Below are positions 32,374-41,818 of a stretch of DNA of 61,573 nt, piece by piece (the first letter of the stretch is position 1; every line of letters starts with the position of its first letter). The position numbers and the translations under genes are program-made. The notes beneath the pieces were generated by a model. It was not told the origin of the DNA, searched no databases, and saw only the letters and a list, made by a program, of their open reading frames with translations. This DNA comes from K189A clade bacterium (lineage in GTDB: Bacteria > Pseudomonadota > Gammaproteobacteria > Pseudomonadales > Azotimanducaceae). The DNA lies in NCBI GenBank assembly GCA_018607725.1, contig JABBAY010000124.1:1-61573 (forward strand). The letters are read 5' to 3'.

Positions 32374-33996
32374 ATGAAAAATTGCCTGACAGCGTTATTC
32401 CTGCTGAGTTTTACCAGTCTGGGCTGGGCCCAAACACAGGCGACCTCCGTCGATTTCGAAACGCAAACGATCACGCTGGCGATGACTCAGGAACCGCCAC
32501 AGCTCAATGGCATGAAAGCCACAGATCAGGTCAGTATCATGATCTTGAGTCATGTGATGGAAGGCCTCACGCGCTACGATCGTCGGGGCAACATCGTGCC
32601 GGGCGTCGCTGAACGCTGGGAAGTTAGCGACACAGAAGCGACATTCTGGCTACGTGATGACGCTATGTGGAGTGATGGTCAGCCGGTGACTGCCCACGAT
32701 TTTGTGTTCGCCTGGCGCAACGCGCTAAAGCCCCAAACCGCCTCTGAATACGCCTTTATCCTCTACCCGCTGCTGAACGGCGAAGCCATTAACAAGGGCG
32801 AAATGGATCCGGCGGCCCTCGGAGTCGAAGCCCTTGATGACCGCACCTTGCACATACGGTTTGAGCGTCCTACGGGCTATTTCGATAAGCTCACGGCGTT
32901 CGTCACCTACTTTCCAGTCCGCCAGGACTTTTTCGAAACCAAAAATCAACGCTTTGGCGCTGATGCCGAAGACCTGGTGTATAACGGCGCGTTCCAGATC
33001 AGTCAGTGGGTCCATAGTGCCTCATTGCGCATGACCAAGAACCCCTATTATTGGGATAGAGACAACATCCACCTCAATGCCATCAACGCAGACTACATTA
33101 CTGCCGATACCCGCTCTCGTCTGAACCTGTTTATCGACGGCAAAATTGTCAGCACGGCGCTCGATGGTGAGACTTACAAAGACGCCCTAACCCAACGGTT
33201 TCGCATTCGGCGCTTCACCACTGGCACCGTCTTCTTTCTCGAGTATAACCATCGCGAGCAGCGCGTCACCGCCAACTTGAACCTGCGCCGCGCTATCCAA
33301 CATGTCTTTGATCCCGATGAGATGGTCAACAAGGTGCTGGCGACGCCGGGCAACCTGCCCGGCAAGAGTCTGTTTCCGGTCTGGCTGAAAGGCAAGACCG
33401 ACAAATTCCGTCAGGAATACCGCGCACCAGAGGCAGCGTTGGACTTGGGCCTGGCTCGAGAGTATCTGCAGAAAGCCAAGACCGAGTTGGGCTTGACGGC
33501 CATGCCACCCCTCGTGCTACTGGTCGGAGACAGCCCCACCGCCGCCAAACAGGCGGAGTACCTGCAAGGCAAACTTAAATCGACTCTGGGCCTGGATATC
33601 AAAATTGATATTCAAACCTTTAAACAACGCCTGGCCAAGATGACCGCGGGTGACTTTGACATAGTCGCCGCTGGCTGGGGTCCCGACTTTGATGATGTCA
33701 TGACCTTTGGTGACCTACTCAGCTCGTGGAATCTGAACAATCGGGGTCGCTACAATAATCCCGCCTACGATGAGCAGGTTCGAATCGCCATGAACAGCGC
33801 CGACCCGAAGGTACGTATGGATGCCATGGGTAAGCTCCAACAAATAGTATTCGACGATGCGGTTGTCTTGCCCCAATATGAGCAGGGTGTCATTTATCTG
33901 CTGCACCCGGAACTGCGCGGAGTTGTCAGGCGTGTTGTGGGTGCCGACCCGGACTTCACTTATGCACGAGTGGTCAAGCCCAATCAAACAAAATAG
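32374..33996 (+). CDS. Peptide ABC transporter, periplasmic binding protein (OppA-like)
   Basis: 540 residues. A signal peptide of about 19 residues (MKNCLTALFLLSFTSLGWA) leads a family 5 solute-binding protein: EPPQLNGMKATDQV, VMEGLTRYDRRGNIVPGVAERW, FVFAWRNAL and later NLRRAIQHVFDPD are all hallmarks of OppA/MppA-like oligopeptide receptors. It lacks a lipobox cysteine, so it is soluble in the periplasm. Four transporter genes follow, making a complete five-gene importer. AAGAGAG before the ATG is the RBS, and TACACT near 32338 may be the -10. Confidence 0.92.
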   Translation: MKNCLTALFLLSFTSLGWAQTQATSVDFETQTITLAMTQEPPQLNGMKATDQVSIMILSHVMEGLTRYDRRGNIVPGVAERWEVSDTEATFWLRDDAMWSDGQPVTAHDFVFAWRNALKPQTASEYAFILYPLLNGEAINKGEMDPAALGVEALDDRTLHIRFERPTGYFDKLTAFVTYFPVRQDFFETKNQRFGADAEDLVYNGAFQISQWVHSASLRMTKNPYYWDRDNIHLNAINADYITADTRSRLNLFIDGKIVSTALDGETYKDALTQRFRIRRFTTGTVFFLEYNHREQRVTANLNLRRAIQHVFDPDEMVNKVLATPGNLPGKSLFPVWLKGKTDKFRQEYRAPEAALDLGLAREYLQKAKTELGLTAMPPLVLLVGDSPTAAKQAEYLQGKLKSTLGLDIKIDIQTFKQRLAKMTAGDFDIVAAGWGPDFDDVMTFGDLLSSWNLNNRGRYNNPAYDEQVRIAMNSADPKVRMDAMGKLQQIVFDDAVVLPQYEQGVIYLLHPELRGVVRRVVGADPDFTYARVVKPNQTK

Positions 33997-34021: not shown

Positions 34022-34954
34022 ATGTTAGCGTACACTCTGAAAAGATTGCTGGCAGGTATGATTACTGTCTGGTTTATCGCGACAGCGACATTTATGGCCA
34101 TGCACATGGTACCCGGCGATCCATTGATGAACGACAAAGCCGTGTCCGCTGAAATTCGAAAAAACCTTGAGGTCAAATACGGCTTAGATAAACCTGTTGT
34201 TGAGCAGTACTTCATTTTTATGGGCAATATGCTCCAGGGCGATTTTGGCATCTCTTTCACTCAGCAAAATCGGCGCGTCAACGATATCATTCGCGACCAC
34301 TTTCCGGTCTCTGCGACGCTGGGGCTGCTGGCCATTTTCTTTGCAGCAACCGGTGGTGTCATCTGGGGCGCCTTGACCGCGATTTACCGCAATCGTCTAC
34401 CCGACATCATCATCATGTTTCTGGTCATACTCGGTATCTCCGTACCCAGCTTCGTGTTCGCTGCATTGGGCCAACTGATGCTCGTCAACATCAACAGCCT
34501 ACTTGGATTCTCCCTGATCCCCGTCGCGGGCTGGGGGACTTTCTCTCATATGCTGATGCCATCGATGGTACTGGGACTTGGTACCATGGCACTGCTGACT
34601 CGCCTGATGCGCTCGTCCATGCTCGAAATTGTCAACGAGGACTATATCAAGACCGCCAAGGCCAAGGGTTTGTCGCCCATGCGAATCTTCTTCAAGCACC
34701 AGCTGCGAAATGCCATCTTGCCCGTGATCACCATCCTTGGGCCATCGATCGCGGCCATCACCACGGGCGGTTTCGTGGTTGAACTGGTGTTCGCCATACC
34801 CGGTCTGGGGCGTTACTTCGTGCAAGCGGTGCAACAATTGGACTACACAGTGATCATGGGTACGACGGTGTTTTTCGGTGCCTTCTTGGTTTTGATGGTT
34901 ATCCTGGTTGATATTATTTATGGGTTTGTCGATCCACGAGTGAGGCTGCAATAG
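34022..34954 (+). CDS. Peptide ABC transporter permease 1 (OppB-like)
   Basis: 310 residues with six membrane helices in the DppB/OppB arrangement. The N-terminus MLAYTLKRLLAGMITVWFI is helix 1, HMVPGDP opens the periplasmic loop, and the EAA loop (DYIKTAKAKGLSPMRIFFKHQLRNAILP, about 211-238) contacts the ATPases. It lies 25 bases after the binding-protein gene, and its TAG stop abuts the ATG of the next permease. It forms half of the inner-membrane channel. Confidence 0.93.
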   Translation: MLAYTLKRLLAGMITVWFIATATFMAMHMVPGDPLMNDKAVSAEIRKNLEVKYGLDKPVVEQYFIFMGNMLQGDFGISFTQQNRRVNDIIRDHFPVSATLGLLAIFFAATGGVIWGALTAIYRNRLPDIIIMFLVILGISVPSFVFAALGQLMLVNINSLLGFSLIPVAGWGTFSHMLMPSMVLGLGTMALLTRLMRSSMLEIVNEDYIKTAKAKGLSPMRIFFKHQLRNAILPVITILGPSIAAITTGGFVVELVFAIPGLGRYFVQAVQQLDYTVIMGTTVFFGAFLVLMVILVDIIYGFVDPRVRLQ

Positions 34955-36373
34955 ATGAGTGATAATGTCACCCCAAGCTTCACCCCTGACTACACGCCAG
35001 CCAGCCATGGCCAAAGCGTAGAGCAACTCTCGAGACCGTCGCTATCCTACTGGCAAGACGCCTGGATTCGCCTGAAACAGAATACGCGAGCGATTATCTC
35101 CCTGTATATCGTTGTCAGTCTGGCATTGTTCACCTTGGCGGGACCGCTACTCTGGCAGGTCGACCCCGCACTTCAAGACCTCAACCAAATCTCCCAAGCG
35201 CCGTCCTTGCCCAAGCGCGCCTTGCTCGCAGACCCTTATGAGCGCTGGCAGCCCATCATTCTTGATGACTTCCCCAGCGAACCCGAGACCTACGTGGACG
35301 TCGACATGATGCCAGCACCCACTGGTGTTCAGCCCCTCGGCGAACCGACAACTCAACAGATTCGCCTGCGCTGGGAGCCTGTTGTAGGCGCCGGCGGCTA
35401 CAGCATTTACCGCAACCAGCACGCCCCAGAGGGGCTTAACGATTTGGGCCTACCTTTGGCCACCACCCTGGGTGGCAATGAGATCAGCTATGAAGATCGC
35501 CTGAATCTGGAACAGCGAGACTACTATTATTCCATTGTGCCCACTGATGGTTTTGATGAAGCCGACGTCTACACCACCATTAAGGTGTTACCCACCATTG
35601 CTATCACCCGCGATGAAGCCACACAACGAGGCTTAATTGACGCTGATACTGACATCCAGATTGGCGACTCACTGTCCCTGCGCTTTCACCCATTTGGCAC
35701 CGACTATCTCGGCCGCGACATGTTAGCCCGATTGATGCAGGGCGCCAGGGTTTCACTCTTTATCGGCATCTGCGCGCCATTTCTGTTCGTGATGTTCGGC
35801 ATTCTCTATGGCGGCTTCGCCGGTTATTTCGGCGGCCAGCTTGATTCCCTGCTGATGCGCTTTGCCGACTTTGTCGTGGCGCTGCCATTCCTGCTGTTTA
35901 TGATCTTGTTCAAGATCGCATTTGGCATCGGTCCCGGGGAAAGTGGCGTACTACCCATGTTGATTGCGCTGGTCGTTTTGGGCTGGCCTGGCACCGCGCG
36001 CCTGGTTCGTGGCCAGGTTTTGCAAATTAGAAATAACGGCTACATTGATGCCGCTCGTCTGTTGGGTGCCAAAGACAGCTACCTAATTGTTCGCCATATA
36101 CTACCCAATACCATGGGCGTTATTTTGGTCACGCTAACATTTGCTGTGCCTGGCGCGATCTTTACGGAAGCCTTCCTGTCCTTTATCGGCATGGGCGTTG
36201 CCCCCCCCACCCCTTCATGGGGCTCCATGTGTAACGAGGGGGTCAAGACCATGTTAAGCCATCCCCATGAACTGATTTTTCCTGCGACGTTCATTAGTAT
36301 CACGGTGCTGGCGTTTAATCTTCTCGGGGATGGCCTGACTGAGGCACTCGATTCTCGCATGCGGTCAAGGTAA
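34955..36373 (+). CDS. Peptide ABC transporter permease 2 (OppC-like) with FN3-like periplasmic insertion
   Basis: 472 residues, about 170 more than usual OppC. Helix 1 is at 46-66; the conserved HPFGTDYLGRDMLARLMQGARVSL entry into the channel comes only at 245-268. Between them is an extra periplasmic segment: a Pro-rich link (80-118), then about 119-212 a fibronectin-III-like domain (PTGVQPLG, IRLRWEPVVGAGGYSIYR, and YYYSIVPTDGFDEAD as strands B, C and F/G). The EAA loop and remaining five helices are normal. The start directly follows the OppB-type stop and OppD begins six bases after it. The insertion may dock the binding protein, peptidoglycan or a large substrate; it is in frame and there is no sign of an assembly error. 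Confidence 0.9.
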   Translation: MSDNVTPSFTPDYTPASHGQSVEQLSRPSLSYWQDAWIRLKQNTRAIISLYIVVSLALFTLAGPLLWQVDPALQDLNQISQAPSLPKRALLADPYERWQPIILDDFPSEPETYVDVDMMPAPTGVQPLGEPTTQQIRLRWEPVVGAGGYSIYRNQHAPEGLNDLGLPLATTLGGNEISYEDRLNLEQRDYYYSIVPTDGFDEADVYTTIKVLPTIAITRDEATQRGLIDADTDIQIGDSLSLRFHPFGTDYLGRDMLARLMQGARVSLFIGICAPFLFVMFGILYGGFAGYFGGQLDSLLMRFADFVVALPFLLFMILFKIAFGIGPGESGVLPMLIALVVLGWPGTARLVRGQVLQIRNNGYIDAARLLGAKDSYLIVRHILPNTMGVILVTLTFAVPGAIFTEAFLSFIGMGVAPPTPSWGSMCNEGVKTMLSHPHELIFPATFISITVLAFNLLGDGLTEALDSRMRSR

Positions 36374-36379
36374 GCATAC

Positions 36380-37414
36380 ATGGCAGATAAGATACTGGAA
36401 GTCGAGGATCTCAGCGTTGAATTCGCGACCTATGGCGGTACAGTCAAGGCGGTGCGGGGCGTCAGCTTTGATGTTAATCGCGGCGAAACCCTGGCCATCG
36501 TCGGCGAATCTGGCTGCGGCAAGTCCGTCACTGTACAGGCCATCATGGGCATTATTCCGATGCCACCGGGGAAAATTACGGGTGGCACGGCGAAACTCAA
36601 CGGTGAAAATATTCTGGGCTTACCACCGAAAGAGGCCAACCGGTTTCGAGGCGTTGAAATCGGCATGATCTTTCAGGATCCCATGACCTCTCTCAACCCG
36701 ACCATGACCATTGGCGACCAGATTTCCGAGACGCTGATGGTCCATCGTGGCATGAGTTACACCGATGCCTCACGTCGAGCGGTGGAACTGCTCGATAAGA
36801 CTAAAATAGCCGAGGCCGCCAAACGCGCCAAACAGTACCCCTTTGAATTTTCTGGCGGTATGCTGCAGCGAGCCATGATCGCTCAAAGCCTCGCTTGCAA
36901 CCCGTCGGTGCTGATGGCCGATGAGCCGACTACCGCACTGGATGTGACCATCCAGGCGCAGATTCTCGAATTGATGGCTGAACTCCAGCGGACCGAGAAC
37001 ATGTCGATCATTTTGATTACCCACGATCTGGCAGTCGTCGCTCGAATGGCAGACCAGGTCGCGGTGATGTATGCGGGTCAGATAGTCGAGTCAGGCAGTG
37101 TCGACGATATTTTCTATCGCTCCAGTCATCCTTACACGCTCGGCCTCAAGGAGGCGATGCCCACCAACAAGCGCGACGGCAAGAAGACACTGACGCCGAT
37201 CCTTGGCAGTCCACCCGATCTGTTTCACCCACCCACGGGTTGCGGTTACTTTGCCCGCTGCCCCTACGCGATGGCCGTCTGCGAGCATCATCAGCCGGAG
37301 GAACACCACCTCACTGACAGCGATGCAGAACATCAGGCGCGTTGTTGGCTGCAGCACGAGGGCGCACCACACATCAAGGCGCTGAACCAGCCAGGAGCAG
37401 ATCAACGTGATTGA
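36380..37414 (+). CDS. Peptide ABC transporter ATP-binding protein 1 (OppD/DppD-like)
   Basis: 344 residues. Walker A is GESGCGKSV (42-50), with a Val in place of the usual final Ser/Thr neighbour as in many DppD proteins. The signature is [15 protein letters not shown] and Walker [14 protein letters not shown]. The C-terminal oligopeptide-transporter extension has the cysteine-rich [15 protein letters not shown]. It pairs with the next ATPase to drive import. Its stop overlaps the GTG start of that gene by 8 bases (GTGATTGA). Confidence 0.94.
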
Positions 37415-38360
37415 AACTAAAGATCTGGCGAAACACTTTCAGGTTGGCCGCGGCCAAATACTGCATGCCGTCGACGGCATCAGCATGAAAATTCAAGAGA
37501 ATGAAATTCTTGGTTTGGTGGGCGAAAGTGGTTCGGGCAAATCAACGTTTGGTAAGGCCCTGATCGGTCTGCACCCTCTCACCAGTGGCTCGACGATCTA
37601 TAATGGCCATACTTTACCGACTAAATTCAACGCCGCCGATCACTTGAAGTACTCCAAAGAACTGCAAATGATTTTTCAGGATCCCTACTCATCGTTGAAC
37701 CCGCGCATGACCGTACTGGATATCGTTGGTGAAGGTCTACTGATCCAGGGCAAAGTTTCCCGCAACGACGTCAAGGAGCAGGTCGCCGATTGGCTCGGCA
37801 AGGTCGGACTGAACGCTGATCACATGTCCCGCTACCCTCATGAGTTCTCTGGTGGACAGCGACAGCGGATTGGAATCGCTCGAGCAATGATTATTCAGCC
37901 ACGATTTGTGGTGTGCGATGAGCCTATCTCGGCACTTGATGTCTCGGTTCAGGCACAAGTGGTTAATCTATTAGAGGAGTTGAAAAACGATCTGGGACTC
38001 ACCATGCTATTTATTGCCCACGACTTATCCATGGTGCGCTATGTTTCCGATCGTATGGCAGTGATGTATCTCGGTTCCTTGGTAGAGTCAGGCCCGGCTG
38101 ACGAAGTCTTCTTTCATCCGCAACATCCCTATACAAAGCTACTGGTTGAAGCCAACCCTGAGCCCGACCCGGCCAGCGAGCGCCTACGCCAGCATGTACC
38201 CATCGCCGGTGAAATCACTTCGCCCATGAATCTGGGTGCTGGGTGCCGCTTCGCTGATCGCTGCCCCCAGGCAATGGATCACTGCCGGAACGTGACACCC
38301 AAAATTACATTTATTGCGGAAAATCACACGGTCAGCTGCCACTTATTCGATCAGTCTTGA
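37407..38360 (+). CDS. Peptide ABC transporter ATP-binding protein 2 (OppF/DppF-like)
   Basis: 317 residues from the GTG at 37407, with AGGAG (37392-37396) as RBS. Walker A is GESGSGKST (39-47), Q loop MIFQDPYSSLNPRMTV, signature FSGGQRQRIGIARAM, Walker B FVVCDEPISALDVS, and the C-terminal CRFADRCPQAMDHC extension. Last gene of the five-gene importer; it converges on the NUDIX gene only 23 bases away, with no obvious terminator between. Confidence 0.94.
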   Translation: MIETKDLAKHFQVGRGQILHAVDGISMKIQENEILGLVGESGSGKSTFGKALIGLHPLTSGSTIYNGHTLPTKFNAADHLKYSKELQMIFQDPYSSLNPRMTVLDIVGEGLLIQGKVSRNDVKEQVADWLGKVGLNADHMSRYPHEFSGGQRQRIGIARAMIIQPRFVVCDEPISALDVSVQAQVVNLLEELKNDLGLTMLFIAHDLSMVRYVSDRMAVMYLGSLVESGPADEVFFHPQHPYTKLLVEANPEPDPASERLRQHVPIAGEITSPMNLGAGCRFADRCPQAMDHCRNVTPKITFIAENHTVSCHLFDQS

Positions 38361-38383: not shown

Positions 38384-38926
38384 CTAGCAAACCGGCGTTT
38401 TGCTGACCATTCGCAGCAGTGAAGCCTCGGCGGATAATTGCTCGACCTCCGCTAGTGGAACCCAAGCTAAGGCATGAGACTCATCGCTGACAACGATCTC
38501 TTGTCCCGGCGCAGCCTGCAGCAAAAATCGGCAATCATAATGCCAGTGGGCGGGTTCGTCGCCGCGGGCCGGTATGGCATGAATATCAATATCAAAAATC
38601 TCCGGCGTCACCAGCCTCAAATTATCAAGTCCTGATTCTTCATGGGCCTCACGCATCGCCACTTGGGCAATATCAGACTCACCGTCGGCGTGACCGCCAA
38701 GCTGTACCCAGATATTGAGCTTTTTATGATGCGTCATTAGCACCGTCATGCCCTGCGCATCCAGCAACCAGGCGGAACCGGTGATGTGCCCCGCGGCCAG
38801 CTGACGCTTGAAGCAATCGGGATTATCCCTAATAAAAACTTGAAGGCGCTCAATCATCTGCACCTCTTCGGGATAGCGCATTTGATATCGATCAACCAGC
38901 TGACTGAGCATCTGACGATGAGGCAT
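38384..38926 (-). CDS. NUDIX hydrolase
   Basis: 180 residues. The Nudix helix REAHEESGL (92-100) is preceded by GGHADGESDIAQVAM (77-91). The first box glutamate is shifted by one place relative to the textbook G-x5-E-x7-REUxEExGU, as in the common GGHADG(D/E) subgroup, while the metal-binding REAHEE is intact. An N-terminal helical part (1-45) precedes the fold. It probably hydrolyses a nucleoside diphosphate derivative; the substrate is unknown. RBS AGGA is five bases from the ATG. It is 33 bases past CobT on the same strand and probably co-transcribed with it. Confidence 0.85.
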   Translation of the reverse strand: MPHRQMLSQLVDRYQMRYPEEVQMIERLQVFIRDNPDCFKRQLAAGHITGSAWLLDAQGMTVLMTHHKKLNIWVQLGGHADGESDIAQVAMREAHEESGLDNLRLVTPEIFDIDIHAIPARGDEPAHWHYDCRFLLQAAPGQEIVVSDESHALAWVPLAEVEQLSAEASLLRMVSKTPVC

Positions 38927-38959
38927 AATATTCCTGTCAGTTAAAAGTCAGGTAGGGTG

Positions 38960-40801
38960 TCACTTGATTTCGCTGGATTTGATGGGCGCTCGCTGACGAT
39001 TCAAATTTTCGTCAAACAAACCCACCAATTGCTCCGTCATGGCATCACCTAACTGTTCCGCATCGGTAATCGTCACGGCTCGGCGATAATGGTGAGTGAC
39101 ATCATGACCGATACCAATAGCCACCAACTCGACCGGCGAGTGATTTTGAATACGGTCGATCGCATACTTCAGGTGCTGTTCCAGATAATTGCTCGGATTC
39201 ACTAGCAAGGTACTGTTATCGACCGGCAAACCATCAGAGATGACCATCAATATCCGTCGGTCCTCTGGGCGGCCAACGATTCGATTGTGAGCCCACAACA
39301 GGGCCTCACCGTCGATATTTTCCTTCAGCAACTCCTCACGCATCATCAACCCGAGATTTCGTCTGGCACGACGCCAGGGCATGTCTGCAGACTTATAGAC
39401 GATATGGCGCAGGTCATTGAGTCTGCCAGGTTGGGTCGGCTTGCCTTGCTGTAACCACTGCTCACGAGACTGACCGCCGCGCCAGGCACGAGTCGTAAAG
39501 CCTAAAATCTCTACCTTCACCGTACAGCGTTCTAGTGTACGGCCCAGGATATCTGCGCACATAGCCGCGATCGTAATAGATCGCCCACGCATGGAACCGG
39601 AACTATCAATCAGCAGAGATACCACCGTATCTCGAAATTTCATGTCCTTTTCTTGCTTAAACGCTAACGGATGAAAAGGGTCGATGATGACGTTGGTTAA
39701 GCGCGAAGTATCAAGCATGCCTTCTTCCTGGTCGAATTCCCAGGTCCGGTTTTGCTGCGCCATCAGCTTCCGCTGCAGGCGATTGGCCAGTTTGCTGATA
39801 ATAACCTGAGAGTTCTGCAGGTGTTTGTCCAGCACCCCGCGGAGGCGATCCAACTCTAGGGGGTCACACAATTCATCGGCGAACACGACCTCATCAAAGG
39901 CCGTGGTATAGGCTTTGTATTCGCTATCTTTGGGTCGTAACCAGCTGGGTTCTGCGCCAGAATCAGGCGGCGCGCCAGCATCATCCTGCTCACCTTCAGC
40001 TTCGGCCATATCCATGGCATCAACATCCATGGGCACCTCGCCTTCAATAGCATCGGCCATGTCGGCATCGCCAGACATTTCCTGTTCCGAGTTGTCATCG
40101 CCGGCTTCAGTCTCCACCTCCTCGGCTTCCTGGCTTTCCTCGTCAGCATTACCCTCGCCGCTGTCTTCACTCCAGTCATCACCCAGCCCCAGGTCATGAA
40201 TCATCTTTCGAGTCAATTTGGTAAACTCTGCCTGGTCGTACATGATGGCATCCAGATCAACGAGCTGGTCACCCAGATGTTGCTCAATATAATCACGCCA
40301 TGGCGCCAACGCCTGATTGGCCACCGGCGGCAGCTCACCGATCATCTTTTCTCGAATCAGCAAGCCAACGGCCTCACCCAGGGGCACATCCTGTTGGGTT
40401 TCTGCTCCGTCATAGCCACGATTAATGCACTGCTGTTCGAGCTCAGCCTCCAGGTTATCTTGCACGCCGCGCATCAAGTAAGAGCCGATCGCGGCAATCC
40501 GCGCCGCTTCCACAGCATCGAAGACTTCCTGGGCGGCGCTGGTGTCAGGCTGATGACGCTGATGATAATCAAGGTCGTGGAATCGCAGGCGCAGGGCAAT
40601 TTCATCTGCCGTACCCCGCAGGGCCGCCAGCTGCTCAGCGCTCAGCGCCTCCTCAGGCAGCGGAATGCGCGCCCGATCACCCTGAATATAGGCTTTACCG
40701 CGGCCAAAACTCACCGTCAGCTCCTGATTACCAGAGATGGCACGCATGGTTGAGGTCACAGCCTCTTTAAATATTTCCGTGGAATCAACATCGTCCGACA
40801 C
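38960..40801 (-). CDS. cobT: Cobaltochelatase subunit CobT-like VWA protein
   Basis: 613 residues from GTG 40799-40801 with a strong GGAGGA Shine-Dalgarno. The N-terminal CobT domain (1-205) is followed by a very acidic linker (about 208-285, runs of E, D and A) and a VWA domain with MIDAS DSSGS (399-403) and conserved [18 protein letters not shown] (about 525-542). With CobS it forms the AAA+/VWA chaperone module of aerobic cobaltochelatase. CobN, the chelatase itself, is not in this window, and stand-alone CobST pairs occur in many marine gammaproteobacteria, so a B12 role is unproven. Confidence 0.88.
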
Positions 40802-40837
40802 GGTCTTCCTCCATCACGACAGGGCGCGGTATAAGGT

Positions 40838-41818
40838 TTAACCGAGAACCAAGCGAGATGCAGATTCAGGCAGCTCCTCGCCCATGCAACGCTGGTAATA
40901 TTCAGCAACAATCGATCGCTCTGTTGCATCACACTTATTCAGAAACGTGAGGCGGAAGGCAAAGCCATAGTCATTGAAAATTTTGGCGTTTTCAGCCCAC
41001 ATAATCACTGTTCTCGGCGACATAACAATGGAGATATCGCCATTCACAAAACCCTGACGAGTCAACTCGGCAACCGATACCATATTCGCCACTAGCTTGC
41101 GCTCGACTTCGGGCAACTTGGCGCAAACGATATCTGTTTCCTTGTCGTGAGACAGGTAATTCAATGTGGTAACGATATTCCAGCGATCCATCTGACCCTG
41201 GTTAATCTGCTGGGTACCATGGTACAAACCACTGGGGTCACCCAGGCCGATGGTATTGGTGGTCGCGAACATTCGGAATGAGGCATGCGGGCTGATGACT
41301 TTGCTCTGATCTAACAGCGTCAGCTTACCTTCGACTTCCAATACGCGCTGAATCACGAACATCACATCTGGGCGACCCGCATCATATTCATCAAAGACCA
41401 AGGCGCAGGCTCGTTGCAGCGCCCAGGGTAAAAGTCCTTCACGAAATTCCGTGATCTGCTTACCGTCCTTAAGGACGATCGCATCCTTGCCGATCAGGTC
41501 CATACGACTCACGTGACTGTCGAGGTTAATCCGGATGCAGGGCCAGTTCAGCCGCGCTGCAACCTGCTCGACGTGGGTGGACTTGCCCGTGCCGTGATAA
41601 CCCTGAATCATGACCCGACGGTTGTACCCAAACCCCGCGAGGATTGCCAGGGTTGTCTCAAGATTAAACAGATAGCTCTTGTCGATCTCTGGCACGTGCT
41701 CACTTTTCTGGGAAAATGCCGGCACCTTTAAGTCGACATCAAGACCAAAAGTCTCACGAACATCTACTTGTATATCGGGTATGCCATTGCCCTCCAGGGC
41801 GTTTCCTTTTACTGTCAT
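40838..41818 (-). CDS. cobS: Cobaltochelatase subunit CobS-like AAA+ ATPase
   Basis: 326 residues. The N-terminal part with [22 protein letters not shown] is typical of CobS. Walker A is GYHGTGKST (73-81), Walker [14 protein letters not shown] (about 138-150), followed by [20 protein letters not shown] as the sensor/insert region. It lies 36 bases upstream of CobT on the same strand. The pair is MoxR-related and parallels the MoxR/CoxE-like pair at 21-24 kb. Confidence 0.9.

Follow-up and report, generated by a model that had tools for sequence, protein, structure and literature searches.

A predicted fibronectin-III-like domain in the TM1-TM2 loop marks one clade of OppC permeases

An OppC permease of 472 amino acids is encoded at positions 34955-36373 (+ strand) of a 61,573-nucleotide stretch of DNA from a K189A clade bacterium (contig JABBAY010000124.1), the whole of which is referred to as the window. 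The protein departs from the OppC norm of about 300 amino acids with a short periplasmic loop, a norm that is not part of the Pfam definition. What is the additional segment, and what might it do for the importer? The gene lies in an uninterrupted oppA-B-C-D-F operon on the + strand, where OppA, OppB, OppD, and OppF are all encoded with OppC. The OppA-type solute-binding protein (32374-33996, 540 amino acids) is a member of SBP_bac_5 (Pfam PF00496, E = 2.7e-68) with a cleavable-looking signal peptide. OppB (34022-34954, 310 amino acids) is a permease of normal length identified by Pfam and by NCBIfam Opp3B/OppB. The ATPases OppD (36380-37414, 344 amino acids) and OppF (37407-38360, 317 amino acids) both contain the Pfam domains ABC_tran and oligo_HPY. 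The reading frame, its length and coordinates, and the canonical, complete state of the remaining importer agree with an earlier note on this DNA.

Two domains of OppC were detected above the Pfam cut-offs, OppC_N (PF12911, residues 31-83, E = 1.8e-14) and BPD_transp_1 (PF00528, residues 282-470, E = 4.7e-35), and no Pfam domain was found between them in the 472 residues. The protein falls below the equivalog cut-offs of NCBIfam Opp3C (295.8 vs 450) and PRK15406 (218.4 vs 433). In the full-length AlphaFold2 (AF2) model, TM1 spans residues 44-66 (35084-35152), the insert spans residues 88-243, and the next transmembrane helix starts at residue 254. The canonical core (residues 244-472, 35684-36370) contains the FGTDxLGRD segment and five further transmembrane helices. 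Solved OppC/DppC chains share 32-41% identity with this core (best PDB E = 2.6e-58), and E. coli OppC (8z21_B) is the best match, with 41% identity over the aligned region and a corresponding Foldseek match. The loop from TM1 to FGTDxLGRD is about 180 residues long, as the earlier note had claimed, compared with about 30 residues from the end of TM1 to the GTD motif in insert-free OppC-type proteins from the same order (n = 20). Its N-terminal part (residues 84-121, 35204-35317) consists of one strand and a variable linker with a conserved W98. The predicted beta-sandwich follows at residues about 119/122-213 (35318-35593). A C-terminal connector (residues 214-243, 35594-35683), made of an ITxxEAxxRGL helix and a G..v.L strand, leads back to the membrane.

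The insert (residues 85-245) was modeled with AlphaFold2 from an alignment of 39 homologues. The mean pLDDT is 95.8, and strands are predicted at residues 136-139, 148-154, 169-171, 178-181, 190-197, and 207-211. As a predicted fold, the insert is the seven-stranded beta-sandwich characteristic of fibronectin type III (FN3) domains. FN3 domains make up nearly all of the best 50 Foldseek matches in the PDB (E from 2e-4 to 2e-3), with TM-scores of up to about 0.77 when normalized to the small FN3 targets. The full-length model retrieves OppC structures and, separately, FN3 structures. A profile of the insert matched three PDB chains, every one through its FN3 segment; the best of these, 3mpc (E = 0.02), is weak when taken alone. 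The weak profile matches outside the order are in non-permease proteins; fn3 is present in seven of the eight that were scanned with Pfam, and for three of these (L133, L138, and L157) the profile match and the fn3 domain have coinciding coordinates. As candidate FN3 permeases these matches were rejected, being other kinds of FN3-bearing protein.

In single-sequence Pfam scans the window insert gave no match to PF00041, and only one of 17 homologues gave a match (E = 0.16, below the cut-off). Profile and structure methods are needed here because single-sequence scans miss the domain. The W...Y.IYR and YYYS pattern on which the earlier note had based an FN3-like region at about residues 119-212 is present and conserved across the 39 diverse homologues. 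This pattern, together with the beta-sandwich predicted at a pLDDT of about 95, supports the assignment of the insert as a real FN3-like domain instead of a chance pattern.

The insert is under purifying selection, with a dN/dS of about 0.07 against a close relative (dN 0.022, dS 0.33). It is found in frame at 80 loci from independent assemblies. These two results and the pLDDT refute the alternative that the segment is a disordered loop or an artefact of assembly, gene calling, or fusion, to which we attach a negligible probability.

The distribution of the insert was determined by profile search. It is present in all five other genomes sampled from the genus, in 34 of the 36 others sampled from the family, and in the OppC of about 51 of 295 genomes of the order. 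For the contig scan, a 17-row family-wide alignment was too diverse and was replaced by a tighter one. The seven weakest matches in the order fall in other open frames; two of these (G516 and G535) were checked and rejected as FN3-OppC, since they are FN3 lipoproteins. No insert-bearing OppC was found with the insert profile in about 365 Gammaproteobacteria outside the order. The named carriers are Pseudomonadales MAGs and isolates, including OM182, K189A, Pseudohongiella, and LSUCC0112, a defined gammaproteobacterial clade that is largely marine and for the most part uncultured. The insert is retained across many families of marine Pseudomonadales, and this clade-wide conservation bears out the proposal of the earlier note that it is a real elaboration.

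The OppC proteins separate sharply when a core-only query, from which the insert is left out, is used. Cores that are at least 60% identical to the query occur in 36 genomes, all in frames of at least 444 amino acids and all positive with the insert profile. The remaining cores are at most 47% identical, are mostly from proteins of about 290-350 amino acids, and appear to be without the insert; no core falls between 47% and 60%. Among the few longer frames in the latter group, three that were checked contain an insert of a different kind, and one is fused to an ATPase. A tree built from the cores alone places the proteins with the insert on one side of a single branch (support 100/99.9). The FN3 insert was gained once and marks one OppC clade.

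The FN3-OppC unit was also detected in one family from another class of Pseudomonadota and in four of 149 genomes of the class of one Acidobacteriota MAG (L106, L109, and L149-L152). The Acidobacteriota proteins form a single clade nested within the Pseudomonadales sequences in the core-only tree, which suggests horizontal transfer of the unit into Acidobacteriota, with mis-binning of the MAGs as a possible alternative.

Almost all of the 80 loci with enough flanking sequence retain the oppA-B-C-D-F order, and in almost all of them oppA adjoins oppB. The division among OppA proteins matches that of OppC, with identities of at least 45% in insert-bearing genomes and at most 33% elsewhere. One genome (G365) has an OppA of this clade but no insert match among the matches listed; the contig is short. 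The earlier note had raised the question of whether the insertion accompanies a particular binding-protein clade, and the insert and one OppA clade do segregate together. Co-inheritance of the operon is established. Operon linkage alone could give rise to this co-segregation, and co-inheritance does not in itself establish a physical partnership between OppA and the insert.

Known importers provide the frame for a possible function. The E. coli OppC (8z21_B) and DppC (8z1v_B) and the permeases of M. tuberculosis OppABCD and DppABCD share the six-helix OppC fold, the FGTDxLGRD segment, the coupling region, and the Opp/Dpp context with the window protein; unlike it, they have a short TM1-TM2 loop with no FN3 domain. 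The P2 loop of MalF is described as Ig-like and is located between TM3 and TM4. Like the window OppC, MalF is a permease subunit whose large periplasmic insert is folded and rich in beta-strands. It belongs to another permease subfamily, differs in the transmembrane position of the insert, and gave no more than a weak match, over the whole chain, to the full-length model. MalF-P2 of MalFGK2 comprises about 180 residues (about residues 91-271) and contacts MalE (PMC3150292). The OppC insert would be comparable to MalF-P2 in role, as an analogue with no homology seen. The scoop motif of DppB is likewise a TM1-TM2 periplasmic element that binds the solute-binding protein (PMC12136057); it is a helix-loop-helix of about 30 residues and is found in the heterodimer partner, DppB, not in DppC. 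The Fn3-like module 3mpc from Clostridium thermocellum (profile E = 0.021, Foldseek TM-score 0.72 normalized to 3mpc) and bacterial fn3 domains (PF00041) share the fold and core pattern of the insert. These modules occur in secreted proteins, whereas that of OppC sits in a membrane permease loop, is extended at both its N and C termini, has an LGLPL loop, and does not reach the Pfam cut-off.

By analogy with these systems, the most likely role for the insert is to dock or tether OppA in the periplasm, for which we judge the chances to be about even. The earlier note had proposed docking of the binding protein, the cell wall, or an unusual peptide, a plausible suggestion. A module of about 150 residues, built around one FN3-like beta-sandwich in the TM1-TM2 loop of OppC, would lie next to the translocation gate on the periplasmic side, in contact with OppA. 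The docking space would be shared with MalF-P2, since by topology the TM1-TM2 loop of OppC projects there. The domain would dock OppA on the OppBC pair or hold it there, and may couple OppA binding to ATPase activation, as MalF-P2 does for maltose-binding protein. It would complement the scoop motif that OppB/DppB, the partner subunit, has in its TM1-TM2 region. Purifying selection, the restriction to one clade, the matching OppA clade, and the correlation of the insert with OppA given below were counted in favor of docking. Ordinary Opp systems work without an FN3 domain, which counts against docking.

The conserved residues point to a candidate contact site. W140, R153, G165, L166, P167, D181, Y190, and Y192 are invariant in the 39 homologues, and W140, Y190, and Y192 are typical FN3 core positions. 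The nearly invariant LGLPL motif (residues 164-168, 35444-35458) is not generic to FN3 and would be the most likely contact patch. The same loop and the aromatic residues could also indicate that the FN3 domain acts as an accessory receptor and itself binds a substrate (peptide or murein peptide). We consider this very unlikely, for most of the invariant residues look like FN3 core positions, a dedicated OppA is present, and binding of small ligands is rare among FN3 folds. Mean identity to the window proteins is 50% for the insert, 65% for OppA, and 85% for the OppC core. Divergence faster than that of the core is expected for an exposed domain, and it would limit any interface with OppA to a few residues.

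Partial correlations of pairwise distances were calculated for the insert and the other components. The value for insert and OppA is 0.28, higher than those for the insert with the core or with OppB. The value for insert and OppD (0.305) is about the same as that for OppA; OppD is cytoplasmic and cannot touch the insert, and the distance test therefore does not distinguish between the two as partners. The correlations with the OppB regions are about zero. This argues against a structural or assembly role, in which the domain would stabilize the pairing of OppB with OppC, stabilize the scoop region, or seal the outward-facing cavity, with no specific docking. Such a role would be in keeping with the position of the OppC TM1-TM2 segment opposite the scoop region of OppB, and we regard it as improbable.

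Three proteins from the family of the window genome (L211, L212, and L213) belong to a different OppC-type clade and contain an unrelated TM1-TM2 insert of about 95 amino acids (...RFFEHDGTFHLRPFVYGYDLHI...YPIRFFARG...). The TM1-TM2 loop has thus accepted extra sequence more than once, and a site that repeatedly gains mass is in line with the structural role.

The FN3 domain could instead bind a partner other than OppA, such as peptidoglycan, an outer-membrane partner, or another periplasmic protein, and so position the importer, for example, near sites of peptide release or murein turnover. Bacterial FN3 domains are common in extracellular and cell-surface proteins, as among the profile matches, and conservation of the importer as a unit with a fast-evolving exposed domain would suit this alternative. 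No co-conserved extra partner gene was found besides oppABDF, and by topology the insert lies at the OppA docking face; we think a partner of this kind unlikely. Beyond the operon, on the opposite strand (38384-41818), lie a NUDIX gene and a CobT-like/AAA pair. The NUDIX and CobT-like genes hold the same place in many homologous loci, in only part of the clade and on the opposite strand there, which does not favor them as partners.

A second OppA-type protein, 49% identical to the window OppA, is encoded elsewhere in the same genome (G000:C191:1162-2748, L221), with no permease genes beside it within the 8 kb read. It is a possible orphan and could share the FN3-OppC importer. A broader form of the docking proposal is that the FN3 domain would be a permanent receptor or tether for several OppA proteins, including orphan paralogues of this kind, so that the permease gathers several binding proteins and represents a distinct, once-evolved class. 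We offer this as a speculative extension with a rather low probability.

In the prevailing view, contact between importer permeases and their binding proteins is made through short loops, with MalF-P2 as the well-known exception. A different permease subfamily seems to have independently acquired a comparable domain of recognizable fold. FN3-OppC does not amount to a new type of system: the importer is well known, and FN3-OppC is a variant of it that defines a clade. The earlier note had allowed that the segment might be common in related genomes as an already described domain; most close relatives do have it, but Pfam and NCBIfam leave it unflagged in these permeases, and no description of an OppC with FN3 or of permeases with FN3 insertions was found in the literature searched. 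Permeases that share the core but differ in whether they carry the domain offer a natural comparison of how binding-protein docking sets the speed and specificity of an importer.

Four C-terminal cysteines were also seen by eye in the sequence of each of OppD and OppF (36380-38360). The arrangement is similar in E. coli DppD and DppF, which bind [4Fe-4S] clusters (PMC12136057).
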